Source: Polytrichum commune
Lineage: Eukaryota; Streptophyta; Polytrichopsida; Polytrichales; Polytrichaceae
Direction of reading: 5' to 3'
DNA length: 64,000 nucleotides
Assembly: GCA_950295325.1 (NCBI GenBank)
Contig: OX485804.1
Span: 26,784,001-26,848,000 of the forward strand
A program made the position numbers and the translations under genes. This document shows, piece by piece, positions 31,137 through 61,264 of this stretch; position 1 is the first letter of the stretch, and each line of letters begins with the position of its first letter. The notes under the pieces are model-generated. The model was not told where the DNA came from. It worked only from the letters and a program-made list of their open reading frames with translations, and searched no databases.

Positions 31137-31165
31137 CACTACAACAGATTGGGTATTTTGTGACT
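31137..31165. repeat. left terminal inverted repeat of the CACTA element
   Basis: Twenty-nine bases beginning CACTACAACAGATTGGGTAT and ending in TTTTGTGACT are an exact inverted match to 61,236-61,264; base 30 differs. It is preceded by ATA, one copy of the target duplication. Confidence 0.95.
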
Positions 31166-31801: not shown

Positions 31802-31806
31802 GTCCG

Positions 31807-38857: not shown

Positions 38858-41800
38858 GTCCGATACGCAGTGCTCGGAGTCATCTACCGATGCGTCATCC
38901 GGTCCCTCTAGACATTCTAGTGCCTTGGCAACCACTCCTGGCCCTACTTCCACTGCATCGTCCAATATGGGTGTTCTCGGTACGATATCGTCCTGAAACG
39001 CCGTCACTTGTAATCCGGGAAAATCAGAAGTCCTACCTAGTGCTATGCACTGTACTTCATCCGTTCTTTGTTGTTTGGAGAATACCCGAACCCCTCTCGG
39101 TTCCTTGTGCAAAACAACTTCCCATCCACACTTCGCTACGTCAGGTGCAAAAAAAACTTGTTCGATGTGGAGAGGAAATGCAAATGATTGTGCTGAGAAC
39201 GGGATCAATCTGTCAAAGTTTACACTGGTGAAACCATAGTCGTCGCGCTTCATCGTCGCCCCATCTCCCTTAATGTTTGCAACGACCCAATTGCAATAGA
39301 GGACCACCACCTCGAAGAATCCATAGTCCACAGATAGGATTTCCTCCACCCAACCCACATACTCCAACTCCGCTGCCTTTGGATTTGTGTCCTTCAGGCC
39401 CGAGCGACATAATTGTCGAAATGTTGCGGCCACCCCAGAGTCCATCGTTGTCAATTGCGCCTGTGCGCTTCGGACACGGATGTGGTTTCTAAACGCATAC
39501 ATGGATCGATACGACTTCGCTGCATCCGATGGAGGTAACATCAAGGCCCTAACGTCTTCATGTACCTCCTCCGTGCCTTCTTCTATGGTGCGCATCACTG
39601 CTTTTGGAAACCAAATGTGGAAATCCTCGTCGCGCAGCTCCGCTGGGTACATTACCCGCGCCTTCCGCTTCTTGCGCCTGTATTCGTGCCGCTCACATTC
39701 CCGCCGTGACATGTCATCCTCGTGTTTCCTGCATTTTGGATACAACCCACCACATCATTACCCGTGACTTGCTGAAATCACTAAGGGCAGTCATATTTGC
39801 ATACAACAGTAGTCGTACTGTGTCGCGATAACTACAACGAAATGCATATTTTACGACTACATTTTGTGATTGTACTCAGTCATAAATCCCAAAATATGAC
39901 TGACTGTAGTCATATTTTTTTGTCACAAAAGATGTGTTTTGTTATAGTTCGTATGGTCTGCACTGTTGTTCTATGAGAGGTGGTGCATTTAAGGTTCTTC
40001 TACTAAAATGTGAACTCACCTCCTCCACTCCTCCAGTGGTGCCGCATTGTTCACCACGAACTCATGTATCCATTGTCGAAGGTCGGATGGGAGATGACGC
40101 GCCCGCCCGCCACCTTCGAGGATCTCATCATACATTGATGGGTCTTCTTTGTCATCCCACACTCTTCGAGTGGTGACTGTATATTCTTGCATATACTCCG
40201 TACAAAATCCCAATGCCTCTACTATGGCGTAGCCTTCAGCCATGCAACCCTCTGGGCGAGTACGGTTTCGGACATACCCTTTTAGAGTCTTCAGGTACCT
40301 CTCGATAGGGTACATCCAACGTGTATGTACGGGTCCACAAATTTCCACTTCCTCCACGAGATGCAGGACCAAATGGCTCATGATGTCAAAAAATGATGGC
40401 GGGAATTCTTTTTCCAACATGCATAGTGCTATGGCCGCTTCACACCTCATCTCCTGTATTGTTGCAGGATCAATGGACTTAGCACACACCCTCCTGAATA
40501 CACGGCTCAACATTATTATTGATGTCCGCACTTCCTTTTCCATTGTGCAGCGCACACATAGTGCCAACACTTGCTGCATGAGGACATGGTAGTCATGGGA
40601 TTTCAGGCCTTTAATTTGCCCATCTACGTTTACGCGCTTCTTCAACTGTCCCACATAGTGAGTGGGGGTTCGCAGTGCACGCACTTGCTCCACAAAGACT
40701 TCACGCTCTTCTTTCGTCATAACGTACGAGGATCGAGGTAGAATCACGCTACCGGGTTTTGTTCCTGCTACGGGCCAAAGATGCGGGCGTATACACGCCT
40801 CCTTCATGTCCAGACGAACTCCAAGTGTATCCTTCTCTCCAAATATGGTTTTCATCACATTCTCAGCGATGTTTTTCTCACAGTGCATAACATCCAACGT
40901 GTGTCGAATTAGAAGATCCTGCACAATGACTCGACCCAGTGAGAAATTTTCCAGAGCGAATCACAATATCACTACGTGCAATCATGTGACTGTACATGAC
41001 TACGTCCACTCACATAATACTCATAAACAATATTACTATATGCAATCATGTCACTACGTCCACTCCCTTAATTCTCATAATAAGAAACACGTACTTTCCA
41101 GTATGGAAGGTCATATAGACATGTCCTCCTCTTCACTCCATGTTCGTGTACGGGGTCTGTCGTCTGCCCAGTTTGGTTTCTGTAGTGTTTTTTCGTCCAC
41201 TCTTCTCGCTCGTTCGCATATCGCAATTGTTCTCGACCACTCATCCTTCTTGGCGGTGGTCTCATCTCCGGCTGCCCATCAAAATTGGACCTTTGTCGTC
41301 TCCATTGGTGGGTCATTGGCAGTTGTCGTCTATGCCCAAGGTAAACATTTGTTTTCAGCGCTTTGGAACGCCGTGTTGCCACGTTGGGGCCACACACGGG
41401 GCAAGCCCTATGTCCTTTTGTTACTTGCCCCGAAATCAAACCGTACGCGGGGAAGTCATTCACCGTCCACAAAAGCATGCCATGTAGCTTAAATGTTTTA
41501 TCTTTGGGGTTTCCTTGCGATCCGTCCAAGCAATCGATCCCTTTCCAAAGCTCTTGGAGCTCTTCAATCAACGGTGCCATGTACACATCCACGTTCCTGT
41601 CCTTTACACTCTCTTTTCCTGGTATGATTAGCGCAAGCATCATGAAGAAGTTTTTGGTCACTAACCAAGGGGGGAGATTGTAGTTTAGCATGACCACGGG
41701 CCAAGTAGAGTGGCTGAGACTTTGGTTCCTAAATGGATTTACGCCATCCAGTGCAAGGCCAAGCCTAACGTTCCGTTCATCTTCCGCAAACCATGGCCAC

Positions 41801-42720
41801 CTATTATTTACGTGGTCCCAAGCCTTCGAGTCCACCACGGACCTCATCACCTTGTCCTTACTTTTCCCACCTACATGCCACTTCATTAGGCCCGCGATCC
41901 GTGTGCAGCTGTACATCCTTCGCAAACGAGGAATCAAGGGAAAGTGTCTCAAAACTTTGACTGGAATTGTACCGGAGTTCTCTACAAAGCGCGATTTGTG
42001 GCATGTTGGGCACTCCGTTGCATTCTCCAATTCTTTCCGAAACAAACAACATCCATCTCTACACGCATGTATTGAGTTGTAGGACAACCCCAACTTCATC
42101 AACAAGCCTTTCGCCTCGTTAAATGATTTCGGTAGTGTGTTGTCCTTGGGTAAAATTGTCTCCTTCAACAACTTCAACAACTCATCCACAAAGTTGTTTG
42201 GTACAGCGAATGTGGTGCAACACAATAGTATCAAGAGTGTCGATGTGAGACGGTTCGAGGGGCTTCCCTCATACAGTGGAGTTCCAGCTTCGCATAAGAG
42301 CTTCTGGTGGTCTACCCCACTGGGGTCCTCACTGTTCATCGTACTCCCTCTTGTTTCCATGGGGTCATTCGTTTCTTCCCTTTCCCCCTCGCTACCTTCA
42401 CTGTCCTTCGTTGTGAAACCATCCTCCCCTTCATCGTCTTCAACCAATGCATCCCCGAGTCCCTCATGTATTGTGGCTTCGGTTTCGTATCCATAAAATT
42501 TGAGGTCATCGTACTTGCCAAAGCACTCTGCCACCATACGTAGAACCTGAACTTCTCCTTCTTGTCCATCGTTTGTGTTAGGGTATGTCTGGCTTCTTTG
42601 CCCAATCCGGGGTGCATGGGAGAACAAGTCAATCGGGCTGTACTCGTCCTGCAGATAGTGATAAATTTGTTCGCACGTTATATATTTTCGCTTTGGCAGA
42701 AACATACGACAAGGACTCAT
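38840..42720 (-). CDS. CACTA transposase TNPD (TNP2 / DUF4218 / DUF4216), three exons
   Basis: This is the catalytic transposase that would cut and join the element ends. Exons 42,720-41,095, 40,918-40,020 and 39,728-38,840 join in phase (donors GTACGT and GTGAGT; acceptors GTGCAG and ATGCAG) to about 1,137 residues. The first junction restores LPYWK-DLLIRHTLDVMHCEKN, the hallmark junction of TNP2 and DUF4218. TNP2 motifs include ALDGVNPF (residue about 325), WTVNDFPAYGLISG (about 420) and KGHRACPVC. DUF4218 fills the second exon; DUF4216 (YVGWVEEILSVDYG, VVLYCNWV) lies in the third. The start is the ATG before SPCRMFLPK; the usual N-terminal zinc region is absent and may sit in the neighbouring SET gene. 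An LTR element inserted three codons before the natural stop replaces the end with five residues. Both introns carry AGTCAT motifs. Confidence 0.93.
39830..39949. mobile_element. MITE-like 120-bp relic with CACTA-type ends in transposase intron 2
   Basis: The left end ACTACAACGAAATGCATATT aligns with the element's own terminal repeat. The right end TGTCACAAAAGATGTGTTTT, then GTTATAGT, resembles the inverted terminus with more changes. Between them are ATGACTGACTGTAGTCAT and similar motifs. No 3-bp target duplication is evident (GAT and CGT flank it). It may be a decayed short deletion derivative of the same family, or terminal-like regulatory sequence. Confidence 0.5.
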
Positions 42721-43175
42721 AACAATGACGATCATAGAACACGGACTGTATATAACGTGCACATATTATATACAAATGTATAAAAACGACAAGGAGCAAT
42801 CACAAGTAACATTGTATCACATGGATGAGTCATAAATTTGTGACTTCTGTGTTACATGATTCTGTCATAAAATGTGTAATGTATCTACGAGGGGCAATCA
42901 TGAAACGCCGAATATAACATGAACTTGTAACATGCGTGGGGGGGGGATGTTCATCGATTATGAAGACAAGAGTGTGTTAGGTAAAAGAAATTTCATGCAC
43001 CATACAAATACAAGCATTGGATGTAAAAAATTGATCATGTTCCACATACACATGTATACCGTGGTCTGGACATGTATACAAAATTTTGTCAAAACAAAAT
43101 ATGACTTCGTGTAGTCATGTTAGTGAACACATGGCACACTTTAGTCATTCCGAATGTGGACGGATGGGTGTCAGC
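42721..43175. other. spacer between the SET gene and transposase, no gene seen
   Basis: This AT-rich spacer has scattered ATGACT/AGTCAT-like motifs (for example near 42,830-42,870 and 43,105) and a short G run at 42,939. It should hold the SET gene's 3' end and the transposase promoter, unless the two are spliced together. Confidence 0.5.
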
Positions 43176-44161
43176 CTACAATGCGGTGTGCGGGTTCAAA
43201 GAGTAATGTGCATACAACTCTTCTCCGACCATAATGTCCTTTGTGGCCATGGTGATTACATACCCCCATTCCTGTTTGTTCCAGGGTTTTGGCAACATGC
43301 GAAATTCCCACACCACATTTCCTATTTCTTTGCGTCCTATGGAACTATTTATGAAGCCTGCGACATTCCCTTTCATTACATCTCCATCGATGTACAAGTC
43401 CGGCTCAACTTGCATCGCATATGACTTCACTCGAGGTTGTGCCTTCTTCAAGGCACTGTATTCTCCCTTGGTGTATTGTGGTCCTACGAATGGAAGCAGT
43501 TCCTCTCCCTCTTTGGCGGGTTGAAGTGCAAAGAGACCCCAACCCATGAATGGGAAGTTGGACACCCTTACTTCCCATTCTCTATTCCAGTATGAAAACT
43601 TTATAAATTTTGGGATGGACCCGTCACACCACTGTCCGTCATACACGTTTGACCCCCATGACTGCAAGGCTCGTACTCTTGCAGACGCAGTGTTTGGCAT
43701 TGACTGTGAAGGCATTTCGTGTCCTCCTAGAAACTTTCTCAGGGATGTCTTGCAAGCAGCTTTTACAATGGGTCTCCATCGGGCCTACAAAATTCATGTA
43801 CACAAAGATGAAAACTCGCTCAAAGCAGGACCACCCGCTGACGCTCATTCACAAGTTGTTTCATGGAATGACTCACCAAGATAGAGGCTGTAAACACGGG
43901 GTCCCTTTTTTTGCTGCGAAGATGCTTTCGAATTGTGGCTCGATCGAGGACTTTCCCTCCTGCACACTCCATGCAAGGGCATGGGTACTTGGATAGCCGC
44001 ATTGCATCTGCTTGGACCTCTTCTTCTTGCCATAACTGTAGATGCTTCAAGCTTTCGACCTCCCCTCCTGCCATCCTGTGGTGTGCACGGCATACGCGCT
44101 GGGTCAATTTGTGATATGGGAATACCTTACAAGGAGGAAGTGCTCGTATGCACGCAGTCAC
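43176..44161 (-). CDS. SET-domain protein with N-terminal CxCxxC motif, encoded within the CACTA element
   Basis: Two exons fit: 44,161 (5' limit uncertain; first ATG 44,074) to 43,877 with donor GTGAGT, and 43,784-43,176 with acceptor TTTTGTAG. The 92-nt intron joins them in phase 0. Exon 1 ends KYPCPCMECAGGKVLDRATI then RKHL, which resembles the zinc motif that starts TNP2 transposases (Transpos_assoc). Exon 2 is a SET fold: WEVRVSNFPFMGWGLFAL (GxG motif), GEELLPFVGPQY, DLYIDGDVMKGNVAGFINSS, NVVWEF, and ITMATKDIMVGEELYAHY with the C-terminal tyrosine. The usual N-H-S is N-S-S, so methyltransferase activity is uncertain. SET proteins methylate lysines, often on histones. The gene lies between the transposase and the divergent promoter. 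It looks like captured host sequence fused to a transposase N-terminus; splicing onward to the transposase is not excluded. Confidence 0.8.
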
Positions 44162-44189
44162 CTATCTATGTGGATTAATACGGTCTAAG

Positions 44190-44350
44190 GGAAGTCAAAT
44201 AACCCAAGGCAGTCATATAACACAGGGGAGTCATATAAGACATGACAGTCATATGACACAGGGTAGTCATATAAGACATGGCAGTCATAGAACACACGGG
44301 GGTCATATAACACATGTCAGTCATATAAGACATGACAGTCATCAGCTCAT
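44190..44350. repeat. tandem AGTCATATAA motif cluster
   Basis: About nine copies of a 17-20-bp unit such as GACAGTCATATAAGACATG stand in tandem just upstream of the leftward SET gene. They resemble the element's subterminal motifs, so they could be binding sites for its own TNPA-like protein in the central promoter region; that role is inference. Confidence 0.7.
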
Positions 44351-44410
44351 GACTAGAAGGCGTGAAAATACTCTAACCGAAGCCGTGAAGCAACTTGAAG
44401 GAATATTATG

Positions 44411-45724
44411 AAACATCATGAACCCAATCCACTTTGTATGAATCTTCTTTTACAACATTCATGAACGTGTTTGATAAATCGTGGCATATGATTGTATGAT
44501 TTAAATAAAAGTATCCTAGTTGAGTTGGTTGAGAAGACTCGACTGGTCATAAACTAAGTAGCTCATTCTCTTTGAGTTGGATAAGGGTTGTTTTCAATAT
44601 GAGATCAAGGGCTGCGAGGAAAGAAAATTAGGATGTCTCATTGTCCAAAAACCACGACCATCGGATATTCACGTCACTTTTTAAAGCCTTGATCATGGGA
44701 CATGTTGTGAAGCATACTTAGGGAAATGGCTATGGGCACAATTTGGATTTGCTAATCATTTTGCACTAATTGTGTATTTCACATCCTATGAGAAGAGGGT
44801 TTAAAGAGAGTTGTGTTTATTCAAGACCCACTTACCTTAGTGACCACTAATGTGACCTTATGGACCATTGTGCACAATATGTATCTTCTTGGTCATTGAG
44901 TGTCCACAATTATATATGGGAGCTCACACATAGTGAGCTAAAGTTTCCTATTTTCAAAGCCGAGCAAACACCAAGCATTACTTTCATTTGATTTAATTAT
45001 AGTCATGAGAAATGCATAACATTTGTTGATTTCTTAACTAAATACGCGGGTTCTCCCAATTGTGTTCATTGTTCAATGTAGAGTAGTTCTTTGAATTTTG
45101 AAGACGTATTCCAATCTTTTCTAAACATATGTCTTTATGATATTTTCTTTTTGATGATCCTCACCGAACCAATTATCAATCATATCTAGGGGTCCGATTA
45201 AAGAAGGACTCAACTTAAGCCCATCTACCTTACATACTTAGAAAAGGTGGTACCAAGGGACCATTTCAACATCAACAGTTCTTTTCGCTCCTAAATGAAA
45301 ACTCGTCCTAGAAGTGCAAAGCAGACTCAATGAACACCGACCTGAAGGATGGGTTTCATTTGTTAACAAAACACTTGAATATTAAGAAGGTACCAAATAC
45401 AATCTCAAAGGGTGAATAGGTATTATATTAAGTTATAATTGACCACTATTATGTCCGTATAATGTCAAGTCATCCAATGTGGATGAAGGGGATTTAGTTT
45501 AAAAAAGGTCCCCGTTAAGGTTGAGGGTCGATTTATTCCAACTAGACTCCATAAGATTAATTTAGGGACTTTGATGTGTAATTTGATGTCAATTTCATAA
45601 TGGATGAGTTTACATAGACACCACGAATCCCTCGTCAAGTTCATGCCTTATAAACTTATATTGGTATAAAAGATCACATGGATAATGAAGTAAGTGTCAT
45701 GAAGCCCATATATACTTTTTTGGT
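44411..45724. other. AT-rich stretch with no recognised gene
   Basis: I see no coding potential, no matching repeat elsewhere in the window and no terminal structure. It may be an old decayed insertion or part of the spacer between the divergent transcription units. Confidence 0.5.
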
Positions 45725-45855
45725 AAAAGTAATTTCGAATGTTGAGAATGTAAAAGTAATTTCAAATGTTGAGAATGTAAAAGTAATTTCAAATGTTGAG
45801 AATGTAAAAGTAAAGAGAATGTTGAGGATGTAAAAGTAAAGAGAATGTTGGGCTT
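45725..45855. repeat. 27-bp minisatellite, about five copies
   Basis: Three near-identical 27-bp units (AAAAGTAATTTCAAATGTTG then AGAATGT) and two shorter variants (AAAAGTAAAGAGAATGTTG) follow each other. Confidence 0.85.
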
Positions 45856-46010
45856 TAATTTGGTTGATGGATGAACTCATCCGTCCACGACAATGTTTGA
45901 TGACTTTTTCATAGCCCAATATTTGTTACTATAAAAAAATGTAAAATTTCACTATTTACGTGCAAATTAAAGTTTCTGATCTATTTTAAAGAGGTCTATT
46001 TTTATAATTT

Positions 46011-46079
46011 ATCTCTCCCTCCCTCTCTCTCTCTCTCTCCCTCCCTCTCTCTCCCTCCCTCCCTCCCTCCCTCCCCCTC

Positions 46080-46119
<40 letters not shown>

Positions 46120-46375
46120 CCTCTCTCTCTGTCCCTCCCTCCCCCTCCCCCTCTCTCTCTCTCTCTCTCTCTCTCCCTCCCTCTCTCTCTGTCCATCCCT
46201 CCCTCCCTGTCCCTGCCTCGCCCTCCTCGTCCCCTCCCCCGCACGCGCTCCCTCAGCCGCAGTCCCTCACTCGTGCCTCCTACCCTCCCCCGCCCTCCAT
46301 CCCTCGCTCTCCTCCTCCCCGGACCTCCCTCCCTCCCCCGCCCTCCATCCCCTCGCTCTCCTCCTCCCTCATCTG
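46011..46375. repeat. polypyrimidine (CT/CCCT) tract
   Basis: About 200 bp of nearly pure CTCTCT/CCTCCC on the plus strand grade into a C-rich stretch with CGCCCTCC-type units. Long CT tracts occur near plant promoters. This one lies 1.1 kb upstream of the rightward gene's first recognised exon and could be part of its promoter or 5' leader, which is inference. Confidence 0.8.
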
Positions 46376-46380
46376 TCACA

Positions 46381-47448
46381 ACTTTGAGGATTCAGATTTA
46401 ATTTATAGCAGATTCAGGTGAGAGGCAGATTCAGGCTCGAAGACATGGTTTAGGGATCGCGAAATTTGATGTGGTTTAGGGTGGCAGACTCTTTGGATTC
46501 GGTGGCAGACTCGAAGGATTCGGCACCTGCCTCGAAATCTCCGCAGCCTCAATACATTTGGCTCATTCAGGTGAGGTGGTGGGTGAGAGGGTTTTGTGAG
46601 AGTTGTGTTGGGTGAGGTGGTGGGTGGTGGGTGGTGGGTGGTGTGCATGTATCTAGAGAGCTGGTTGTGTGAGGTGGTGGGTGGTGGGTGGTGGGTGCCG
46701 AGAGGGAGTGGGTTTCGAGAGAGGGAGTGGATTTTGCGGCAGCAGGTGGGTTTCGGGAGACAGGTATACATTGGCCATTTTTGAGTTTAAATAGACACCA
46801 GATTCGGTGTCGGAGCTGCTGGCTGGTGGGTGCAGCTTCCTCCACCCCCCGACTTCGGTGGTGGGTGCACCTCGGCACCACATTTGATGTTATTTGTGCA
46901 GGTAATGTGGCAGCAGGGTTTTCAGAGGCAGACCTCTCTCCTAAACTTTTCAGGGTTTTCCCTCTCTCCACCACTTCCACTCACCCTCCAAGGTTGTGCA
47001 CTCTCCCATCTCCAAGGAGAGTAATTTTAGTTTAAGTATTTCATAATACTTCAAAAACTTCAAAACTTGTGCTTTGAAAGACGACATCTAAATTGAAAAA
47101 TGATGAACCCTATTTCGGACACAAAATCGGGTCTCAATGTATTATTCTACATGTCACGAATGAAAGTTATTCTAATCCGGTCACTTATCTTAGTCAAACA
47201 CCTAAATATCATGCTAAAACCCCGCACACACAATCGAATACCTGTGGAGAAAGTTGACCTCACCTATATTCGCAACTCCCTTGGCATTTGTTGTAGAGGA
47301 GCTGGTTGTTCAATCCCTTATCCGCTAACCTGTAGCATCCACAAAAAATTGATGAGGACTGGTAGGGAATACAAAACAAACATCAAAAATGTATACAACC
47401 TGTTTGTATTCTAGTGAACACTAATGTGGATTATGGTTTTGCAGAATC
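46381..47448 (+). promoter_or_regulatory. probable promoter/leader of the TNPA-like gene with two G-quadruplex-type runs
   Basis: Two stretches (46,617-46,644 and 46,672-46,697) consist of four GGG runs separated by TGGT, which fits the G-quadruplex pattern. No plausible long coding frame is present. The stretch 47,100-47,440 looks like intron and ends in GGTTTTGCAG at 47,444, just before the ATG at 47,449, so upstream non-coding exons are likely. Confidence 0.4.
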
Positions 47449-50400
47449 ATGGAGGAAGAAATTCCGGAGTATGAGAGGATACGGAAGAAAAACATCGAGG
47501 CCAACAACCAGAAGCTGAGGGAACTCGGTCTGACACCAATTGGGACCTCTCATTTCAAGAGGCCTGAGGACCCCGGGTATGTAACCCCAAACCCTAATAC
47601 AACGGACCTGCTACCGCTAGCTTTGCTTATGAAGTTTGAAACTTTTATGAATCTTTGTAGTCATAAATTGCATACAACTTGCTGAAGACATGACTGTTTG
47701 CAGTCATAGTTCATAGTATTATGACTCTCTGTAGTCATAATTCAGAATATTATGACTTCCTGTAGTCATACTTTAAGGTCTGTATGACACAGTCCAGTCA
47801 CATTTTTGTGAGTGTGAGTCTTCCCAGTCCTAAACATATTGTAACTTCTTCGAACATCCATGTTGTTGTGCATCATATGTGGCTTCTATTGGTTGTCTAT
47901 GATCGTGCATTTATGATCATGTGTATGAACAATGTTTTTGTTTGACATCACATAATGAATGAATAATTCCATACTACCCAACAGTCCAGAGTTACCAAAT
48001 TTGAAAGGGAATTGAAACCATAATGCATAGGCTAAATATTTCGGGTGTCATATTGAGTAACAATGTAGCGAGGGCTAACTAAGCTGCCCACATGCATGAT
48101 TGGTTGGTGCCCGTGATGATAATGAAAGTTTGAATCATTGGAACTCAATTATTACTAGCTAGAGCACGTGTATGTGTTTGTTACATATTCCTTTCGTAAG
48201 ATGAATTCACAAAGGTTCAAACTCAATTTTATGTGTTGACAATGTGTATGTGTTGTGTATGTGTTGTGTATGTGTTGTGTATGTGTATGTGTATGTTATG
48301 ACAACATGTATGTGTGGTGTATGTGTTGTGTATGTGTTGACAATGTGTATGTGTTGTCAACTCTGCAATAGATTCATAACATTCAATTTCAATTTTTATT
48401 TTCAACCATCCTCAATCCATGTTGTGAACAATTTCATGATTATGACTCCTCCCAGTCAAAAAAATGTGGAGACCACATGACTCATTTGAGTCATGTTACA
48501 GCATTGGCAGTCGTTTACCTTTCAATTTTTGTGGGATGTAATGTCCGTCTAATAACTCACGCTCGTACTGAACAGTGTGGTTCCCGTGACTTCCACCAAA
48601 AATGCCGAAATGAACAATGTACTTGTCAATTTGATAACAAAAATAGCTAATCTGCCTGATGGCATGCAAGTGGAAGTTTTTCGCACAATTGCTAGTTTCC
48701 CGGCAATTACATTGCCGGTTTTGGAAATGACTTCGAATGAGGTTGCGCGTGTTTTTGAGAGCAGCCGTGGCGTGCCTGTGGGAGAGCCGGGCCCATCTGT
48801 AGAGCAGGGTGGTGGCTGGGGTGTGACCACTAGAGCGAAGGGAAAAAAACAACTTCCTGAAACGGACCTCGATGATGACGAGGACGAAGAGGACGAAGAG
48901 GAGACTTCCGAGGACGAGCGGCCCAGACCAAGGAGGCGGAAGGTAAAAACATAAATCTCCGTAGTTTCTTGCACTTGGAAACGCATTTAGTCGTTCGCGT
49001 TACTTGGGTCTCATTCCAAACACATATAGAAAAAATGTTGATAACATATGTCCGTATATGCATATCACTCCAGGAGGTCATAATCTGACCCCGAACATGA
49101 TACTTAGTGCAGTCATGTAATATGACTATAGGTAGTCATATGACTTTGTCCAGTCATATTATGCAATCATATCCTTCCACTCGGCCATGTAGTGTGACTC
49201 GATGCAATCATGTAACTTACTACAGTCATGTAGGGTGACTCCACTGTCTCATATAGCATACTGTACGACTGGGTGTGTAGGGTAATGCAAATGAACCCAG
49301 GTCATGGCCGTTGCAATCTAGCGGAAAGAAGGGCAAGGCGGTCGAGGAGGAGGATATCCTGCTGTCCCAAGACATGCAAGATACTCTCCGGGCTTGTGAG
49401 ATGGACGCCGACGAAGCATCGGCGGACAGCGAGGAGGCAGACATAGGCATAGGGCATCGTAACGAGCTCCTTGACGAGCTGGAGCTCCGGGAAGTAAGCA
49501 TTTTGCGGCGTATGGCTCAAAAAGGAGTCGATCCGACAGAACTTCGGGAGAAGGTGCGTTGCCTTGGCCGGACGGCAGAGGTTGAAGGCGGCGACGGAAG
49601 CGCGCGGCTTCGACAGTCGAAGTTGAAGAACCTTAGGCGGTCCTTGAAGAAGAGTGACGAGATGCACAGTTCCAGTGGTGGTCAGCGTTTGTGGGTCGAG
49701 GTCGACGAGGCCGGGTGCCCGACAGGGATACACAGGCCTGACTGGCTGACGCGACTACGCGGGTACTCTCGCGACCTCGACTGGAGCGTCGACAACTTCA
49801 GGGCACACCCACGGCCCTTGTTGTTGGCAATTAAAGACAAGATGGCCGCACAGTTCGAGTACCGTGGTGGACTCGGAGACGTGCCTGAAGCTATTTTTTT
49901 CCAGATTTTGCGGCAGCAGATGCGCACTCGCAGGTCGAACATGAAGAAACTCATAGAGAGTTGTGGCCCGCTCCCACCGTATGTGAAGAAGGCGCACGTC
50001 GACAACTTCAAGAGGTTAATTGCCTGGACGGACAAAATCGCGGAAGCCACGCGCATGAAAGCCGCACGGCAGACCGTGCAGACCTTGTCGTATTCTGGAA
50101 GGTCCGAAGGGGAGGTGCGCTCTAGACTGGTAAGTGATTTTGTGTGCAAGTCATTCAAACATAAATATGTGACAACCTGAAGTCATATAATGAATGATAT
50201 CACTTTACATAATCACACCGGAAGTCGTATGACCATAGATAGTCACACGCTGCCTGAATATGACTTCACATAGTCATATTCAGAGACATATGACTTCACC
50301 TAGTCATATTGTGATTCATATGACTTCACCTAGTCATATGTTGAGTAATATGACTTCAGCTAGTCATATTCTTAGTAATATGACTTTCCATAGTCATATT

Positions 50401-53400
50401 TAGTATGTTTACGTATTTTTCATGGATCCACAGTTGCTCCTTTCACAGGCCGCAGATTTAGAGCGGCCCCCCACGCAGCTGGAGGTGGAAACCGAGCTAG
50501 CGACACCCGGGAAATCAGGACGGGGCCGGTCCTCGTCATCCAGAGGGCCACTCCCAAATGCAAGAGCGGGAGATAGAGCCCTCTTTGTTACGCGGACAGA
50601 GCTGCACGACTTCCAAGATAGCATGAAGGGGGAGATGGAAGATGTGAAGGCTATGATGAAGCAGCTTCTGCTGGAGGTGCAGAAGCGAACGACGGCCACG
50701 GACATGGAACCGCCAGCCACGGCGGAAGCGGGAGTCGACGTGATCCAAGTAACCGCCGAAAAGGTTGCGTCTGTATACCCTCTAGTACTCCAGTCGAATA
50801 CATGTATGGAACACATTTGCTTCAGCAATGTTGTATGTCATGCATTAGGATCGTTCACTAATACACGCCTCATGTGGATCATTAGAACATTGTCGCGACC
50901 CTTGCTAGTTTTTCTCCACTTAGCTCAATCGCTTTCCAACTCTAGCAAGTGTCCCGAGCGCTAACCTGCACATCCCACGCACATGCATGGTTAGCTCCCA
51001 AAACCGCGGACCTTCAATCCCATATTTGGTCACCAAACCCTCCTACACATGCATTCGGGACTCTTTCCCCTTAGTAGGTAACCCATCGCTAAGGTGGACT
51101 TCCATCCATGGAAGTCCACTCCCTACTTGGTCATAGTGTTGCTAGGACAACACTACAACCACCCGGAGCACATTGCCAAGTATGCTCCGGGGGGGGTCGG
51201 TCGGCAAAGCCGCCTCACCCATATAAGCCTCTAGGACTTTTGGCGGGGCCCCTCCCCCACCGTCAACATCCCTTTTGTCTCTCTACCAAGAGTTGGGGCC
51301 AAGTAGACATTTTCCCTTAGCCGCTGGGTCTAGAAGCCTCCCTGCAGCTTCAGACCTTCATAACTTCCACGTGCGGTCTCTGAATCTAACAACCAACCAC
51401 TCTATCGTCATCTACATTTCACGTAGATCCCTATGGACACCTCACTTGCCCTATTCGGGCAAGTATTGAGGAAGTTATGCCTGTTTAAACCTTTGCAGTC
51501 CCGGGAGCCACTCCCAGGCCCCTGCTGTTCCAGGGCGCTGTCCCGGGACAGCATCCCACTCAAAGTGCCATATCTCCTAGCTCACACCTCAGATTGAGGT
51601 GTTCTTTAGCATTCTAGAATCGGGACGCCATAAGCTACTCATAGCTTATGGCTTTACCCTCATGACTCCTAGTCTTTGTGGGTGGGAGGCGTTCTAAACG
51701 CCCGGGGCCCTCACCCACCTTAGGATCACTTGGTCCCTCTCACCAATGGCGTCACAAGTCCCGGGTGTCACTCCGGGGTCCCCCTTGTGCCCATGGTGTT
51801 GCGGGCACTCCTCATGGAGAGGTGCGCGACACTCACCCCCACCAAATGGAGTCGATGCCCTCATCGACTATACTTATAGTCGGGCACACCAATTCTCAAG
51901 TTGCCATCCTCTCTTGGTGTGGCATTGTGTTTTCTTTAGGGCGCTACCCCCACAATGCATCTTCAAATTTGGCAAAGTCTCAAAGGTGTCGATCCTAGGT
52001 GGTCCGTTTAGGAAAACCCCGGACATCTTGTCCAAGGACCTAAACTACACTAGACTCACCTACTTTGAGACTTACTTGGGTGACCCTTCCTTTGGGGCCA
52101 CCCAAGTTAGGCTCCACTAGCCTAACTCTATCATTTTGACACAACTAGGTTGGACCTCAACGCTTCTACTAAGTTGCCTCGGTTGCCACTCCGAGATGGC
52201 TTTCCTTTGTTAAGCCACGTCTCGATCGCACGGGGGTGATGCCAAGTCCCGCCCGACTTGGCTCCCACTTTGCTCTTTCGAGACATGGGTTCATGACGCC
52301 CATGCGCCAACTCGCATTGGCTCGTGGGTTGCACTTTTATAAGCACGCGCCATCACCTTGCCCCCGCCCGGACAAGACCATGGCTAAGAGGTTTTTGGTT
52401 TTATCCAAGACCCCTCTAAGCCATGGTCCCCATTACTCGGCCTACCCAACCTAGTTTAGCATATATATTCCTCCCTCTTCCACTAACCAAGCACAAGTAC
52501 AAGACTAGGACCTCATCTTATACTTTTCTCTTTGCACCACTAAAGTTGAACTTTATTGCCTTAAGCGAAAATGAACAAGTACATAATGTGGAGGACATTG
52601 CCTCCAAGTTAAGGGTGCTACTAACATCTCTCCCCCACTAAAGGAGATTGATGTCCTCATCAATGCCTACGTTTCCTTTTGTTGGACCCTCTAGCCCTAG
52701 TTTCTTCAAAGCGCTTCACTATCTCCTTGGCATTCACCATGTCCCTTGCCGCTACCCAAGTGGCTTCTTTCTCATGAAACCCCCGCCACTTCACCAAATA
52801 CTCCTTTCCTTTTCGCTTGTGGTTCCTACACTTGAGGATGCCTTCTACCTCGTACTCCAAATGATCTCCTACAAGGTCGGGAGGTGGCCTAATCACTTGC
52901 TTACGATTAGGCCATAAGGTGTCTTCCTTGAACGGCTTTAATAGTGAGACATGGAATGTCGGATGCACTTTGATCTCGGGCGGCAACTCCAACTTATAAA
53001 CATCTTTGAAAACTCGTTCAACAATCGGAAACGGACCCGCAAATTTTGACATGAACTTTGGAGTGAGGCCTTCGGGCATTGTGAAGTTTTTCACATTCAA
53101 CAACACCTTTTGGCCCACCTCATACTCCACTTCGCGTCTTCCGGCATTGACTTGTTTTTCATAGCGTTTTTGGGCTTTCTCCAACAACAACTTGGTCTTC
53201 TCCAAAACTTGTTCACGCTTTTTGGCTAAGTCCTCACCATCTTGGTTGAACTCTAGTGTTGAATGTGCCCCCTCGAGAGCTAGGTCGGCGGGTTGGAGCG
53301 GATCCACTCCATAAGCCACCTTGAATGGCGATTGCTTGGTCGCCGAGTGCGTGGCCGCATTATAACTAAACTCCGCTAAACCCACATAGTCCGCCCAATC

Positions 53401-56400
53401 TCGTTGGTCCGCACTCACAAAGTTCCTCAAGTATTGGTTCAAGACTCCATTCACACGCTCGGTTTGGCCATCCGTTTGGGGATGGAAGGCCGTGCTAAAG
53501 GTTAGTTTTGTTCCAACCTTCCTAAAGAAATGCCTCCAAAATGCGCTTGTGAACTTCGGATCTCGATCGGATACAATCACTCTCGGCAACCCGTGATGCC
53601 TCCACCATGCATTGAGAAAGAGCTTTGCGGTCTCCAAAGCGGTTGCCGTTCCCACGGTTGGCACCATATGCGCCAACTTACTAAACCGGTCCACCATCAC
53701 CAAGATGGCATCGTAGCCTCGTGACTCCGGCAAACTCGTGATGAAGTCCATGGACACACTATGCCATGGCCCCGGCGGGATAGGCAACGGTTGCAATAAG
53801 CCGGCTTGCTTTTGATAAGAGGCTCGGTTTAATTGGCATTTGACACAAGTCTTCACAAAGTGGGCGATTTCTTCTTTCATGCATGGCCAATAATACCTCC
53901 TTGACACCGCCGCTATGGTGGCTTTTTCTCCTCTATGGCCGGCGATGGGACTATCATGTTCCTCCTCCAAAACCAATAGCCTCAACTTGCCTTGTGGCAC
54001 ATACACCCGACTTTGCTTATACTTGAGCAATCCGTCCACCAACTTGATCTCCTTAAGCGCCTTGCCTTTGCGAAGCTCGCCTAGAAACACTTGTGCTTCG
54101 GGATCGTTGACGTACCCCTCCCTTAACTTACGATGCAAGTCACATTCACCTTTGTACATTAGCCACAAGCTTTGACTTGTGCCCATTTCTTGGAACTCTT
54201 CACGTCTACTTAACGCGTCCGGCACCACATTATCACGGCCCGGTTTGTGGATCAACTCCACGTTCATAAGCGCCAAGGTATCGTGCCACCGCAATTGCTT
54301 GGCGCTCACTTGCGTTTGTGTCTCGAAATACTTCAACGACACGTTGTCCGTGTACACCTTGGTCTTGTGCAACCCCAAATAATGTTGCCACGTCTTCAAG
54401 CAATGTACTACGGCGAAGAGCTCTTTTTCATGAGTTGGCCATCGTCTTTGACAACCATCGAGTTTCTTGCTCTCATAAGCAATGGGCCGTCCATCTTGCA
54501 TCAATACTCCGCCAATTGCAAAATCGCTCGCATCCGTATGCACCTCAAAAGGCTTGTCAAACTCCGGGAACTTTAGTACGGGCGGCGAAGACAATTTGCT
54601 CTTGAGCTCCCAAAAAGCTTGGTGACAAGGTTCGTCCCATTCTTGGGATACCCCTTTCTTCAACAAGTCGGACAAAGGCCTAGCAACCTTAGAAAAATCT
54701 CGAATGAAGCGGCGGTAGTAATTGGCTAGGCCAAGGAACGACCTAAGCCCTTTTTGAGTCGATGGCCGCTTCCATTCTTGAATCGCCTTTACCTTTTTCA
54801 TGTCCGGCTTAATTCCATCCTTGGTCACCACATGGCCTAAGAACTCAATTTCATTTTGAGCAAAATCGCTCTTCTCCCCGTTAGCATACAACTTGTTGTC
54901 CCTTAGTTTTCGAAGCACCACCTCAAGGTGCCGTGCATGCTCCTCCGCCGTCTTGGAATACACCAAGATGTCGTCGATATAGATTATTACGAAATCGTCG
55001 GTTTCCTCTCGAAAGATGGTATTCATAAGGGTTGTGAATGTCGAGGGCGCATTACACAACCCGAAAGACATCACCAAAAACTCGTAAGACCCATACCTTG
55101 TGCGGCACGCCGTCTTTTCAACATCTTCATTCGCGATTCGAATTTGATAATACCCGGATTTTAAGTCAATACGACTAAAATACTTAGCTCCCGCCAATCG
55201 GTCGAAAAGATCATCAATCCGAGGTAGCGGGTAGTTGTTTTTGATAGTCACCTTATTCAAGGCCCTATAATCGATGCACATGCGTAGCTTGCCATCTTTT
55301 TTATCCACAAAGAGCACCGGGGCCCCATATGGTGATTTACTCGGCCTAATGTAACCTCTTGATAGCAAGTCATTGAGTTGTTTCTTCAATTCTAGCAACT
55401 CTTTTTGGTTCAATCGATAAGGTGCCTTGGACGGTGGCTCGGACCCCGGGATCACCTCGATCTTGTGATCGACTTCTCTCGTTGGCGGTAACTCTTGGGG
55501 CAACTCGTCGGCGAGTACATCCTTGTACCTCCCTAATACATCGCGAATGTGCTTTGGAGGAGGCCCATCGGTTTTAGCCTCCTCGTGAGTTCTTTGGTGT
55601 TGCTCCATTCGGACCACCACAACCATTTGTACTTTGGACATTCGGTCTATCGAGACCAAATTCAACTTGCCTCCTCCCGCCAGAGGAGTCCTCGTCAACT
55701 TTAAAGTCATTTCCTTGCCATTACGACAAACTACAAGCCGCACCGGCTTGCGCCTCACATCCACCGTGTGAGTCTCGAAGAAGGTGTCCCCCAAAATGAG
55801 GTCCACCTCATCCATTTCACAAAGTGTGAAATTCTCCTTAAACTCCAACGTCCCACACTTTAAGTTCACGTTCAACGCTACCTCCTTCGTCTCATGCGGC
55901 TCGCCCTTTGCGAACCGCACGTTAATGGGCTTGCCTGCTCTACCCGTTGGCAAGCCCAATTCCTTCGCAAGTTTCGGGCTCATGAAGGAGTGCGTTGCCC
56001 CTGTATCAACCAAGCATGAGACATTCCGACCATTGATTTCGGCTTCAAGGAACAAAAGACTTGGCCTTGGCTTAAGGCTACTAGCCTTGGCCACAAAGCC
56101 ACCTTCTAGCATTTGGTCGGCGGTACAACCACGATTTGTCTTGACACTCACCTTGTTGTCGGGGCACGCCGCTTGAAAATGACCAAGTTTGCCACATTTG
56201 TGGCACCGCTTGTCCTTCATGTCGCCTCCTTTAATTCCTACATTGGGTGGTTTTCCTCCTTGGTAGCCACCCTTGGTGGAATTTGTCCCGTCGGGTTGTC
56301 CTTTGAAATGGTTGGATGGCCCAAATTTCTTGCGCTCTTTGCCTCGAGACATATTTCGACTCGAGCCGCTTTGTTGTGCGGGGCCGCTTGACTTTCTTTC

Positions 56401-59400
56401 GGGGCCGTCGGCTTCAATTCTCTCCGCGATCTTAATGATCCCCGCCACGTCCTCGGGAAGCTTTGGAAACTTGAACAAGGCGTCTACCACCCACTTTTGT
56501 AAGCCACCTAAGAAAATGCATCTCTTGGCAAATTCATCCATCTTAGGTGTAGCATTCATTTGGGCGTTAAAATCGCGCACATAGGCCTTAAGGGACCCCG
56601 TGTGCCTCATTTGCACCAAGTTCATTCCCTCCCGCAATTCTTGGTACTCCGGCGTGAACCTATCAACAAGCAATTCCTTGAAGCCGACCCAAGTCAAGTT
56701 TGCCACCAACTCGGGCTCTTGTTCTTTTTTGCTCGTCCACCATTGGAGCGCATGGTCTTTCAAAAAGGCCACCGCTATGGAGACCTTGTCGTCTTCATCG
56801 GGCCTTTGGACATCGTAGTAGTTGTCCATTTCCAATAAAAATTCTTTGACCTTTATTGCCTTACCAAGCCCCGAAAAGGTACTTGGCATATTTACCTTGG
56901 CCAACTTCTTTGTTGAAGAAGAAGGCCTAGCCCCTTGCATCATAAGGAGCTCGATCATTTTGTCTTGGCGAGCTCTCTCGTCCTTGACACGCTTGAGCTC
57001 TTGATTCACGGAGTCCATGAACTCAAGCATTTTGAGTTGGAATTTTAATCCAACATCACCACCTTCCAAGCTTTCGGGCGCATTTGGAAGTCTAGCCCCC
57101 GAATTTTCTTCGAGGTTTTCGGGACCCCTTTCTAGGGACTCCTCCACTTCCTCACCGGTTGCACCATCATCCCCACCATTGTTAATAGACTCAATGGCGG
57201 GGTCAACATCCTCTTCAACATGATCTTTGTTCCGTTTTGAGCGTCGCAACTTTTTAGAAGTCCCCGCCTCACCATCGTTACCCGCACGTTTGGTAGCCAT
57301 CTCTCCTTCAAAGTGCTAGCTCAAAGACGAAACCCTGCTCTGATACCACGTGTCGCGACCCTTGCTAGTTTTTCTCCACTTAGCTCAATCGCTTTCCAAC
57401 TCTAGCAAGTGTCCCGAGCGCTAACCTGCACATCCCACGCACATGCATGGTTAGCTCCCAAAACCGCGGACCTTCAATCCCATATTTGGTCACCAAACCC
57501 TCCTACACATGCATTCGGGACTCTTTCCCCTTAGTAGGTAACCCATCGCTAAGGTGGACTTCCATCCATGGAAGTCCACTCCCTACTTGGTCATAGTGTT
57601 GCTAGGACAACACTACAACCACCCGGAGCACATTGCCAAGTATGCTCCGGGGGGGGTCGGTCGGCAAAGCCGCCTCACCCATATAAGCCTCTAGGACTTT
57701 TGGCGGGGCCCCTCCCCCACCGTCAACATCCCTTTTGTCTCTCTACCAAGAGTTGGGGCCAAGTAGACATTTTCCCTTAGCCGCTGGGTCTAGAAGCCTC
57801 CCTGCAGCTTCAGACCTTCATAACTTCCACGTGCGGTCTCTGAATCTAACAACCAACCACTCTATCGTCATCTACATTTCACGTAGATCCCTATGGACAC
57901 CTCACTTGCCCTATTCGGGCAAGTATTGAGGAAGTTATGCCTGTTTAAACCTTTGCAGTCCCGGGAGCCACTCCCAGGCCCCTGCTGTTCCAGGGCGCTG
58001 TCCCGGGACAGCATCCCACTCAAAGTGCCATATCTCCTAGCTCACACCTCAGATTGAGGTGTTCTTTAGCATTCTAGAATCGGGACGCCATAAGCTACTC
58101 ATAGCTTATGGCTTTACCCTCATGACTCCTAGTCTTTGTGGGTGGGAGGCGTTCTAAACGCCCGGGGCCCTCACCCACCTTAGGATCACTTGGTCCCTCT
58201 CACCAATGGCGTCACAAGTCCCGGGTGTCACTCCGGGGTCCCCCTTGTGCCCATGGTGTTGCGGGCACTCCTCATGGAGAGGTGCGCGACAAACATGCAG
58301 GCAACTGGGAGGTCGGCGGAATCCGGGCATACTGGGTCGACCGCGGCATCGGAGCCCCTGCGTAACACCCTAGCAGATATGGGTTGCCAACCCGTCATTG
58401 AAAAGAAGAAACCCATAGCCAAGAAGAGGAAGGGCGAAGCGGAGAAGCTATTGGCGGAACACGATGCACGGCCTACCCGGCGTGCAATGGCTCGACAGAA
58501 AGAGGTTGGCATTCATGTCATATGCACATTATACTTGTCCGATAGTTATACTTACGTGCAAGCTTTGTATCTTTGATGTGGCCTCAACATTGGACAGTCA
58601 TATGACTATGTCACATGATATGACTGAAGGCAGTCATATCACATGACTCTAGGCAGTCATGTTATACGACTATAGGCGGTCATAGTATATGACTCAATGC
58701 AGTCATAAACATGACAAGTAGCAGTCATATAACATGACATGAGGTTATCACAAGCAGTCGTGTATGACAGGGCCGAGTCATATTCTAACGCTAGAGTGTT
58801 ATTGGGTCGTGGCCTCCCAGGTTATGACGGTTGGAGCGAGTGAAGATCAACCCGTAGACTTGCAGGAGGACGAGGACCATGAGGCGCCTGCGACGAAGAG
58901 GCCAGCAAAACGGGCACATAAAGGAGGCAGTCCACAGAAGAAGAAGAAGAAGGCTGGCAATGCTCCGAAGATTCAGCCGTTACCCCCGAAGGTCCCCTCG
59001 GTAAGAGGTCGGACTCCGGGCGTAGGAAAATTATAGTGTTGAATGTTGTAGGACTTCTTTGCGATATCAGACCTCTGCACGATAGGAGAGAGTGGGGCCC
59101 GGATCTAGTCATCCACCACGCAAAGGACCTGAATGTGAAAATCAAAAAAAGGACCGACTGCGACAAGTTTTTGTCGATGTTGTTCTCTAATTTTGATGTC
59201 GGAATATGGTCCCCCGTAGAGCAGAACGTACTAGAGGTTGTAGGCGCATTTCTTGCATCGGGAACGACAACTCAATGGAGCTTTCTGTGGGGGAGGACTT
59301 ACCCCCTCCAGAACCCAATAAGAGACCTCCGCAATCTATTTGATATGATTCCGGACCCCACGCACGGCTCAACACGGTGTCTCCAAATCGATTGGGATAC

Positions 59401-60445
59401 AACGGCGACGGCGCGTTCCCCCCCCTCAAATGTCCTAAACTTTCCGCGCTGGGATCCCCTAAACCCCAACGATGACTTCCTGGGCAGAATTTGCGGGCCA
59501 TTCGAAGGATTGGCCCGCAAGCAATCCGACATTGAATATTACTTGGCGTATCTGACCAAGGAGGTCCATCTAGCGTCGGTACCTGCGAACCTGGTAGGTT
59601 CATCGACACAGGTAAGCTGCTCTTGGATATTTTTTGTTTCTATTTGGTTCTCACTCCAATCGTAAACAAGGAAAATGCTGATAACACATGTCCGCATAGG
59701 TATGTCACTCCACGAAGCAATATGAGGACCTTAGGCGAATGTGTTACTTTTTGTGGTCATTCTAATATGACTATGTCCAGTCATATGACTATGGTCAGTC
59801 ATAGGCAATATGACTATGTTCAGTCACATGACTATGGCTAGTCATGGGTTATATGACTGTGTCCAGTCATATGACTATGTTCAGTTATAGGTCGCAATTA
59901 TATTACTCATTGTTGTCATATCTGATGACTACGGTGCGGTATATGAGTATGTCCTATCATATTATGCAATCATGGCCTAGTGTGAGGTCATATATTGAGT
60001 ATTGAAGCTCCAGTAACTCCACGCGGATTGTTTTGATTGTTGATAATTACGTTTTCTGCTGCAGACACAAGCAGAAGAGGTCACCGCCGTATTGTCGGAG
60101 ACGCCTAATGCGATGGTGGAGGACGCACCCTTGCCGTTGGCCACGGGGTCCAATGTCGCATTGTTTGACCTGGACGATGAGAACAAGGCCAAGGCGAACG
60201 TAGTGGCGCAAGGCATCATCGTGAGCCTTGCAGGAGGTTCACTCCACGGGCGCCTCATTGAGGAGGGCAACGTATCAGTTTGCGTGTCCTCGATTGAGCC
60301 AGGAGCAGAGTCCGTGTTGCTGTACGAGGGCAACAACGACGACGATCCTCCGATGTTGCGTCTGGGCGATGCACTGAAGTCCATTACCAAGTGGCCAGTG
60401 GAAGCACTGAAGGCTATCCCGCTGGAACCTCAACAAGCCACTTAG
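47449..60445 (+). CDS. TNPA-like CACTA gene with embedded FCP1/NIF-type domain and DUF8039-like C-terminus
   Basis: Exons: 47,449-47,576; 48,576-48,942; 49,281-50,129; 50,434 (or 50,449)-50,748 (or 50,763); 58,301-58,504; 58,821-59,612; 60,065-60,445. The junctions between them agree in phase, but inside the sixth the frame must change near 59,000. About 1,000 residues. Order: [20 protein letters not shown]; acidic tail ([13 protein letters not shown]); Transposase_24-like part ([20 protein letters not shown]); coiled coil; basic linker with KKKKKAG; FCP1-like domain ([66 protein letters not shown]); C-terminal DUF8039-like part ([30 protein letters not shown]). TNPA proteins bind subterminal repeats. 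FCP1 domains dephosphorylate the polymerase II tail, but here LDVNG reads LNVVG and the DD pair reads DW, so it is probably inactive. A gypsy element fills the fourth intron. Confidence 0.75.
47690..47830. repeat. ATGACT...AGTCAT inverted motifs in intron 1 of the TNPA-like gene
   Basis: Three hairpin-type pairs, such as TATGACTCTCTGTAGTCATA, stand about 40 bp apart, followed by looser AGTCACATTTT copies. Confidence 0.8.
47831..48575. other. remainder of intron 1 with a TG-rich microsatellite
   Basis: The stretch 48,241-48,360 is built of TGTATGTGTTG units. ATGACTCATTTGAGTCAT lies at 48,477. Otherwise this is AT-rich intron with no gene seen, ending in ACTGAACAG at 48,575. Confidence 0.6.
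48943..49280. repeat. intron 2 of the TNPA-like gene, filled with AGTCAT motifs
   Basis: Between 49,095 and 49,260 motifs such as CAGTCATGTAATATGACT and GGTAGTCATATGACTTTG recur in both orientations every 20-30 bp. Confidence 0.75.
50165..50405. repeat. tandem hairpin repeats in intron 3 of the TNPA-like gene
   Basis: Five copies of a unit of about 38 bp, each an inverted repeat such as ATATGACTTCACCTAGTCAT, run from 50,255 to 50,400. Looser copies precede them. They match the subterminal motif, so intron 3 is a ready-made array of probable TNPA-type sites. Confidence 0.85.
50891..51831 (-). repeat. 3' LTR (941 bp) of the whole-looking gypsy element
   Basis: On the plus strand it begins TGTCGCGACCC and ends GTGCGCGACA. 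It carries the palindromic core GCTGTCCCGGGACAGC. Confidence 0.95.
52660..57300 (-). CDS. gag-pol polyprotein of the gypsy chromovirus (1,546 codons)
   Basis: A single frame carries gag, a CCHC zinc knuckle (about residue 363), an aspartic protease (about 428), a reverse transcriptase (active-site YIDD about 775), RNase H, an integrase with HHCC zinc region (about 1,120-1,158) and DDE core, and a C-terminal chromodomain (about 1,480-1,537). The order protease, RT, RNase H, integrase and the chromodomain mark it as a Ty3/gypsy chromovirus. Gag and pol form one frame. The start is the first ATG after the primer site. It looks whole. Confidence 0.96.
57351..58291 (-). repeat. 5' LTR (941 bp) of the whole-looking gypsy element
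   Basis: I saw no difference from the copy at 50,891-51,831. The primer-binding site lies directly inside it on the minus strand. Confidence 0.95.
58505..58820. repeat. intron of the TNPA-like gene with AGTCAT motifs
   Basis: From 58,595 to 58,790 units such as GGCAGTCATATCACATGACT and GCAGTCATAAACATGAC recur in both orientations. The intron ends in GGCCTCCCAG at 58,820. Confidence 0.75.
59613..60064. repeat. last intron of the TNPA-like gene with AGTCATATGACT repeats
   Basis: From 59,755 to 59,960 CCAGTCATATGACTATG and close variants occur about five times. The intron ends in TTCTGCTGCAG at 60,064. Confidence 0.8.
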
Positions 60446-61235
60446 ATTTCGATAGTTTACGCATTTAGGGGTCATGTAGGAAAGATGAACACATTTGGAT
60501 ATGCTTGGAGACATGGACTACATAAAGTCGTTCAAGTTATTGAAATTTATGTACTCAATTTGTGTGCTCAATTTCTTACTTGGCTCAGTCATGTAGCGCA
60601 TGACTTGAATGTGTCATCATTGCTTGGGATGTGGCACGAAATGTGACTGACATTCAGAATTACAAGTAATACGAATCTAACTCAATACAGTTATCACAAC
60701 GCACAAAGAACTACGCAATGTGACTCTCCATCTACGCGAATATCACTCCATCATGTCATATTGTGCAGAACATGTTACTAAGAATATGACTACAGAACGT
60801 TATATAACAATGTCATCCCCGCAGAAAATGTGAGTAACGCCCCAAAAAACATGACTACAAGCAGTAAAAAAACTAGCAGTCACATTCCACGTAGCCTGCC
60901 ACGTCGGCAAAATTATGACGCATGCAAGTCATATTACACGTCAGCAGAGAACATGATCACATGGAGTCACATTCCACGTAGGTTTGGTATTTTTTCTGCC
61001 CGGGCAGGTCAAAAAAGGGCACTGACTCCAAGGCTAGTCAAGGTATGCCCCACGTGCAGTGGGGATCGTAGAAACTGTCCTTTTATACGCCTCCACAACC
61101 GTATATGTTCATATGACTCATGTCCGAAGCGACTCGTCGGTAATGACTAGACCCAGTCACCGCGCGCGTCATCCTCATCCGGAGCCTCGTCAGTCATATT
61201 TTGGGATTTTATGACTTAAGGCAGTCATAAATTTC
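60446..61235. repeat. 3' end of the TNPA-like gene and right subterminal region
   Basis: Past the TAG at 60,443-60,445 there is no credible gene. From about 60,590 to the terminus ATGACT/AGTCAT motifs recur, densest at 60,840-61,235 (for example TTTATGACTTAAGGCAGTCA). A GC-rich island with CCGCGCGCGTCATC sits near 61,160. Confidence 0.75.
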
Positions 61236-61264
61236 AGTCACAAAATACCCAATCTGTTGTAGTG
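61236..61264. repeat. right terminal inverted repeat of the CACTA element
   Basis: Exact inverted copy of 31,137-31,165, ending in TGTTGTAGTG and followed by the ATA target duplication. Confidence 0.95.

Follow-up and report, generated by a model that had tools for sequence, protein, structure and literature searches.

A catalytically degenerate FCP1/NIF-like domain is a fixed part of a CACTA transposon family in Polytrichum commune

Analysis of a 64,000-nucleotide stretch of the Polytrichum commune genome (contig OX485804.1, positions 26,784,001 to 26,848,000, hereafter referred to as the window) revealed a CACTA element with an apparent regulatory gene whose penultimate exon is predicted to encode an FCP1/NIF domain, a fold otherwise known from enzymes that trim the RNA polymerase II tail. 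The domain is fixed in one CACTA family and shows signs of purifying selection, and its catalytic residues have been replaced throughout that family. We consider it probable that this exon supplies a fixed, selected and non-catalytic FCP1/NIF module, which would bind a phosphopeptide without cleaving it.

The motifs from which a first-pass annotation of this DNA had proposed an FCP1/NIF fold were all found within one open frame (58,922-59,665, forward strand), with the domain itself at 59,021-59,611. With the trimmed domain as query, Pfam NIF (PF03031) gave E=1.1e-6 and 28.8 bits, its cut-off being 21.8. Five of the nine relatives that were scanned scored above this cut-off and four below it (17.5-20.6 bits), and P0027, a relative from another source, reached 19.3 bits, which is below the cut-off. 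A profile of the family scored 30.0-32.6 bits with the genome's own three proteins of the LDVNGLL/LDVDGLL type, the best of 3,000 shuffles reaching 9.8 bits. When a structural model of the domain was searched with Foldseek, as the first-pass annotation had recommended, the 31 best matches were all FCP1-type chains, pointing to an HAD fold of the FCP1 type. Chance similarity to FCP1/NIF was rejected on the basis of the Pfam score, the family-profile score relative to the shuffles and the Foldseek matches, and the lack of a significant NIF/HAD match, which the annotation had named as fatal to its proposal, did not occur. As no FCP1 chain was obtained from the PDB by sequence search, whether the query was the window frame or the profile of the family, the fold assignment rests on Pfam and on the model, by which the segment is predicted to encode an FCP1/NIF domain resembling the phosphatases of the polymerase C-terminal domain (CTD).

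HAD phosphatases require an aspartate as nucleophile. Neither the aspartate of a DXDX(T/V) motif nor that of the plant DXNG motif was present in the domain. The corresponding position was occupied by Asn in all 22 readable genome copies, the window copy among them, in 18 of 18 readable rows of a 19-row alignment (from which P0019-P0026 were left out), and in all 44 relatives holding the region among the 48 found in databases (P0001-P0048; the region is absent from P0011, P0028, P0037 and P0039, and the nucleophile-pattern match of P0024 falls beyond the part aligned and could be due to chance). The second catalytic position was Val in 21 copies and Ile in one, and either of the two in the aligned rows. 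Arg replaced the Lys of motif III in 22/22 copies and 19/19 rows, and the second position of motif IV was Trp in every copy and Cys (14/18) or Trp (4/18) in the rows. The Ser of motif II was kept in all 22 copies and all 19 rows, and the first Asp of motif IV in 22/22 copies and 17/18 rows. By these counts, the residues needed to form and cleave the phospho-bond have been lost, and most of those suited to holding the phosphate have been retained. The substitutions read in the first-pass annotation (N for the nucleophile D, V next, R for K and DW for DD) were thus as it had stated, and the loss of catalytic aspartates holds across the family and its database relatives. This loss predates the split from the relatives at 55-66% identity that are present in other sources.

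The 408-Mb genome was searched with the domain, and the 84 matches obtained were consolidated manually into 47 places, with three rows of host genes excluded; 20 of the 47 were examined with their flanks. The element's terminal repeat was found at the expected place in 18 of these 20 loci (16 exact, two with one mismatch), and all 20 have the upstream gene part contiguous with that encoding FCP1. A transposase was located upstream on the opposite strand, using rows of at least 83% identity, at 36 of the 47 places within 45 kb and at 35 within 20 kb. Both the splice acceptor and the GT donor of the FCP1 exon were kept in all 21 other copies reaching them, and the domain was stop-free in nine of the 15 best matches of the genome search. 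The domain is present both in other members of the family and in other sources.

The window copy is a dead copy, and other copies of the family are more intact. A one-base frameshift between linker and domain, seen in the window copy and in none of the 20 fetched loci or L031, causes the two parts to be read in different frames; hence the continuous frame 58821..59612 of the first-pass annotation had to be corrected, both because the linker, to about 59,005, reads in a frame other than that of the domain and because the last position of the exon is 59,611. This copy also carries a retroelement nested within the gene. A C-run in the FCP1 exon (window 59418-59425) was observed to differ in length among copies, deviating from that of the window by a non-multiple of three in six of the 20 fetched loci and in L031.

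The dN/dS comparison across copies that had been suggested in the first-pass annotation was carried out with 22 copies, L032 (342 nt only) being left out. Omega was calculated from counts relative to the expectation from the observed mutation spectrum, and a change was regarded as shared when present in two or more copies; codons at the C-run (59412-59432) were dropped from the domain counts, and copies covering less than half an exon from the per-exon counts. Shared changes in the domain comprised 18 nonsynonymous and 31 synonymous ones (17:31 on realignment), corresponding to an omega of ∼0.26-0.27, versus 71 and 39, respectively, among the singletons, with an omega of 0.86 (Fisher p 0.0017; 0.0009 in the per-exon analysis), which is the basis for the purifying selection referred to above. 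The linker in the same exon gave an omega of 1.12 (domain versus linker, p 0.0036), and the wrong frames of the domain gave 1.50 and 1.25. In the five other exons shared omega was 0.54, 0.39, 0.51, 0.92 and 0.62, and shared and single changes did not differ significantly (p 0.29, 0.09, 0.27, 1.0 and 1.0); for the last exon (60065..60445) the two values were ∼0.62 and 0.61. The omega of the FCP1 domain is the lowest among the exons of the gene, being significantly below only that of the 0.92 exon (p 0.03).

One protein search outside the genome returned 26 relatives, 55-99% identical over the aligned part, and a second search with the alignment, in which scoring was confined to the 7,999 candidates with most words in common, returned at least 48. 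In P0027 the domain is followed by a C-terminal domain which, judged by eye, resembles that of the window gene. The longest contig is 9,700 bases for P0027 and likewise for P0055, which is related to the upstream exon, and contigs of 4,893, 54,026 and 133,432 bases occur in the sets of both domain and upstream-exon relatives, from which we infer that the two kinds of relatives are located on the same contigs. No relative was found in the viral and GTDB contigs scanned.

Taken as a whole, the domain is most likely a non-catalytic binding module. Several observations weigh against this. The structural model is of moderate confidence and is weakest at residues 89-134, which include motifs III and IV. 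The omega of the FCP1 domain does not differ significantly from that of the other four exons (p 0.09, 0.43, 0.18 and 0.15), the comparison of shared with single changes is a proxy for internal versus terminal branches which fits no branches, and a short intron used as control gave a shared omega of 0.56 on 10 changes. The first-pass annotation would have given up its proposal had the domain been absent from other members and full of stops there; it is not absent, but eight of the 22 copies carry a stop in the domain frame, and three of the stop changes are common to two or more copies, so some broken copies have multiplied. Repeats bearing NIF frames that outnumber the window family keep their catalytic residues (see below). 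Finally, the exons of the regulatory gene that were scanned gave no match of the TNPA/TNP1/Transposase_24 type in Pfam at E values up to 1 or 10. Of the TNPA-like regulatory gene proposed in the first-pass annotation, a domain inside a multi-exon gene of the element thus stands, whereas membership in a described TNPA, TNP1 or Transposase_24 family was not found; its DUF8039-like end (60,065-60,445) likewise gave no Pfam match up to E=10.

The fold might instead serve as a structural scaffold for folding, oligomerization or protein contact in a transposition complex and bind no phosphopeptide. Many of the invariant residues in the 19-row alignment are indeed hydrophobic (F50, L54, F58, V60, I62, W63, W86 and W90), and Tim50 is a case of the fold serving without catalysis; but the positive residue of motif III and the Ser of motif II, both potential phosphate holders, are kept in every readable row, and a mere scaffold would need not both of them, so we regard this alternative as rather doubtful. 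It is unlikely that the exon represents a functionless passenger, that is, a fragment of a host phosphatase taken up in the manner of Pack-CACTA elements and spread by hitch-hiking. The lost catalytic residues, the stops (shared ones included), the frameshift of the window copy, the variable C-run and the overlap of the FCP1 omega with the estimates for other exons would all be expected of such a fragment, yet its kept splice sites, its relatives at 55-66% identity in other sources (one of them with a like domain order), the low shared omega in the correct frame only and the difference between shared and single changes argue against it, and the passenger explanation was disfavoured on the selection counts. 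That the domain is still an FCP1-type catalyst, with an unusual active site or an altered reaction, is highly improbable given Asn at the nucleophile position throughout and Trp or Cys as the second residue of motif IV, even though S64, R101 and D124 are kept and other repeat-borne NIF domains of the genome retain D and K and mostly DD.

As a non-catalytic binding module, the domain would grip a phosphorylated peptide without turnover, like a natural counterpart of a substrate-trapping mutant. In Scp1, Asp96 is the nucleophile and D96N a substrate trap, which our literature search did not confirm. More tentatively, the ligand might be the phosphorylated tail of RNA polymerase II. From the repeats that it would occupy in the element's ends and introns, the protein could then tether or stall polymerase, and such tethering may serve to control the element's transcription, splicing or escape from silencing. 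By analogy, a reader of the polymerase tail would fit either a TNPA-like block or an anti-silencing role like that of VANC proteins. Should the domain bind the polymerase tail, the link between a DNA transposon's transcription and DNA binding at its ends could be studied directly, and likewise the way in which such an element copes with silencing.

In a Pfam NIF search of the genome, 150 of 965 first-look candidates were scored. Beyond a few host-like genes, most of the listed rows had similar scores (55-62 bits) and were mostly 255-283 residues long; the listed frames were spread over all seven large contigs, and eight listed rows had an internal stop. Abundant repeats with NIF frames keeping the catalytic residues were observed at L038-L046 and L050-L052, with a group B (FDLNGVLCHT...; L038, L039, L040, L042, L044 and L051) and a group C (LDLNGVLVQC...; L050 and L052). 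At the eight places read in groups B and C, the nucleophile Asp and the Lys were kept in all eight and the Asp pair in six, being DN in L040 and L051. As this other repeat family keeps catalytic residues, the dead version represents one form within a broader pattern, and the occurrence of NIF forms with and without these residues in one genome provides a natural comparison of catalysis and binding.

The 3′ end of group B, compared in two copies, reads CACTATATTCGGTA inwards and is CACTA-like, and it is by this end only that the group is provisionally so labelled. The 14-mer CACTATATTCGGTA occurs 404 times in the genome, versus three times for the reversed control, and on contig C1 was located ∼1.6 kb beyond the domain in 15 of the 23 frames classed B and in none of seven classed C, the class being assigned by frame length and score with rows read in part. 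Palindromes of the TTTACGAACGNNCGTTCGTAAA type were seen in the noncoding parts of group B. Gene parts upstream of NIF in group B showed no similarity to the upstream exon of the window family (hhalign probability 0.1 in both comparisons), and the NIF parts of the window family and the abundant groups matched with E=0.0016, but with a probability of only 15.9. Forcing the repeat-borne NIF rows into one clade against three host rows cost 1.10 log units (approximately unbiased test, p-AU 0.38), with L033 and L048, both long branches in the first NIF tree, omitted. L048 (G000:C4:45236653-45237198) has a NIF frame reading LILNVHG...IVDHH, with Asn at the nucleophile position, and L029 (G000:C2:43148500-43152700) contains two adjoining NIF frames that are near duplicates, one LDVDG and one LDVNG. 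It is a speculative further step that FCP1/NIF could be a recurrent CACTA-type module in this plant lineage, intact or dead, acting at the element's repeats on the tail of a polymerase (RNA polymerase II or one used in silencing); the window family would then represent a natural substrate trap which, with SET, might form a kit for control of the element's own transcription and chromatin.

The features of the element are compiled in Table 1. Its exact 20-bp inverted terminal repeats (31137-31156, +, and 61245-61264, −; 0 matches in 100 shuffles) start with CACTA at both ends, and the element is flanked on each side by the 3 bp ATA, a target-site duplication in which chance agreement of three bases is possible. 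The transposase matched Transposase_21 with E=2e-72, as is typical of CACTA elements, and DUF4218 with E=9.9e-38, the match to DUF4216 being sub-threshold (E=2.3e-6; 28.5 bits versus a cut-off of 30.6). Subterminal repeats of the CACTA kind are represented by AGTCAT/ATGACT, which is concentrated in the ends and noncoding parts. Its density per kb was 12.2 motifs in the 3′ subterminal region and 10.5 in its 5′ counterpart. Values of 24.3 and 18.9 were obtained for the intron following the FCP1 exon and for 58292-58820, a segment comprising one exon and an intron; the FCP1 exon itself had 2.5, the flanks 0-0.3, and the nested retroelements and the sequence outside the element 0-0.5.

Table 1. 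Features of the CACTA element in the window (positions of the window)
Feature	Position	Strand	Basis or remark
CACTA element	31137..61264	.	∼30.1 kb, two nested LTR-type insertions counted in
Transposase gene (TNPD type), three open stretches	38840..42765	-	Transposase_21, DUF4218 and DUF4216 matches
SET-domain reading frame adjoining transposase	43176..43784	-	PF00856, E=7.8e-10
Upstream open stretches, TNPA-like regulatory gene	48556..50890	+	Contiguity in 20 loci, per-stretch selection; exon borders tentative
Open stretch with lysine-rich, nuclear-localization-like segment	58301..58508	+	Borders approximate
Linker part of FCP1 exon, acidic, then lysine-rich	58821..59004	+	Splice acceptor conservation
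Catalytically degenerate FCP1/NIF domain (predicted)	59021..59611	+	N8, V10, S64, R101, D124, W125 counted from 59021
Last exon and stop codon	60065..60445	+	C-terminal domain, no Pfam match
3′ subterminal region, AGTCAT/ATGACT repeats	60446..61264	+	Motif density; putative binding sites of the gene product

The element contains two long terminal repeat (LTR)-type insertions. One of them, at 50891-58291, interrupts the upstream open stretches of the regulatory gene in the window; it has an open frame of 1,551 residues (52660-57315, −), and as its two ends show 100% identity in three 300-base stretches, it is probably a recent insertion into the CACTA gene. The stretch 58301..58508 was stop-free in 21 of 21 copies. 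At 35 of the 47 places a SET row was found on the opposite strand, upstream of the FCP1 exon, 63 of the 150 SET rows listed being used for the pairing, with one pair 40.8 kb apart and one of the 35 probably shared between two neighbouring places. Of the SET rows, 21 show 53-58% identity, and a relative of the transposase lies no more than 5 kb from 18 of them; SET therefore seems to be a regular component of two or more CACTA subfamilies in this genome. Positions 1-27705 of the window consist of a 295-bp unit repeated in tandem 93.9 times (96% matches) and show a strong and even GC skew of ∼0.38-0.40.

Among known proteins, the plant-type LDVNGLL FCP1/NIF proteins L029 and L030, which were found by the domain search outside the family, share the motif order and 23-26% identity with the domain (NIF E ∼1e-21 to 1e-23), but differ in retaining Asp as nucleophile together with the Lys and the pair of Asp residues; no indication that they belong to a transposon gene was noticed, no test being aimed at this. 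The small CTD phosphatases Scp1 and Scp2 differ in being active enzymes, and yeast Tim50 in being a mitochondrial import protein that does not come from a transposon. Among the matches listed from 5.39 million open papers, with subscription papers mostly outside the search, no description of a transposon carrying an FCP1/NIF domain, dead or alive, was recognizable, in agreement with the first-pass annotation, which knew of no such description; nor was a SET-bearing CACTA element recognizable by title or start of abstract among the open-literature matches listed. Transposons with host-type regulatory domains, by comparison, are known: fungal DNA transposons are reported to carry TET/JBP dioxygenases (PMC12730594), and resemble the window element in bearing such a domain, differing in the domain, in the hosts and in that the window domain appears catalytically dead. 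VANC proteins of other plant transposons are reported to undo silencing via noncoding repeats (PMC10398659). TNPA of Spm/En, as described in the searched text of PMC2613891, from which the word phosphatase is absent, binds subterminal repeats and blocks polymerase advance. The window gene is like TNPA of CACTA (En/Spm) elements in the type of element, the repeat-rich ends and its separation from the Transposase_21 gene, and differs from it in having no Pfam match of the TNPA type and in lying on the strand opposite the transposase.

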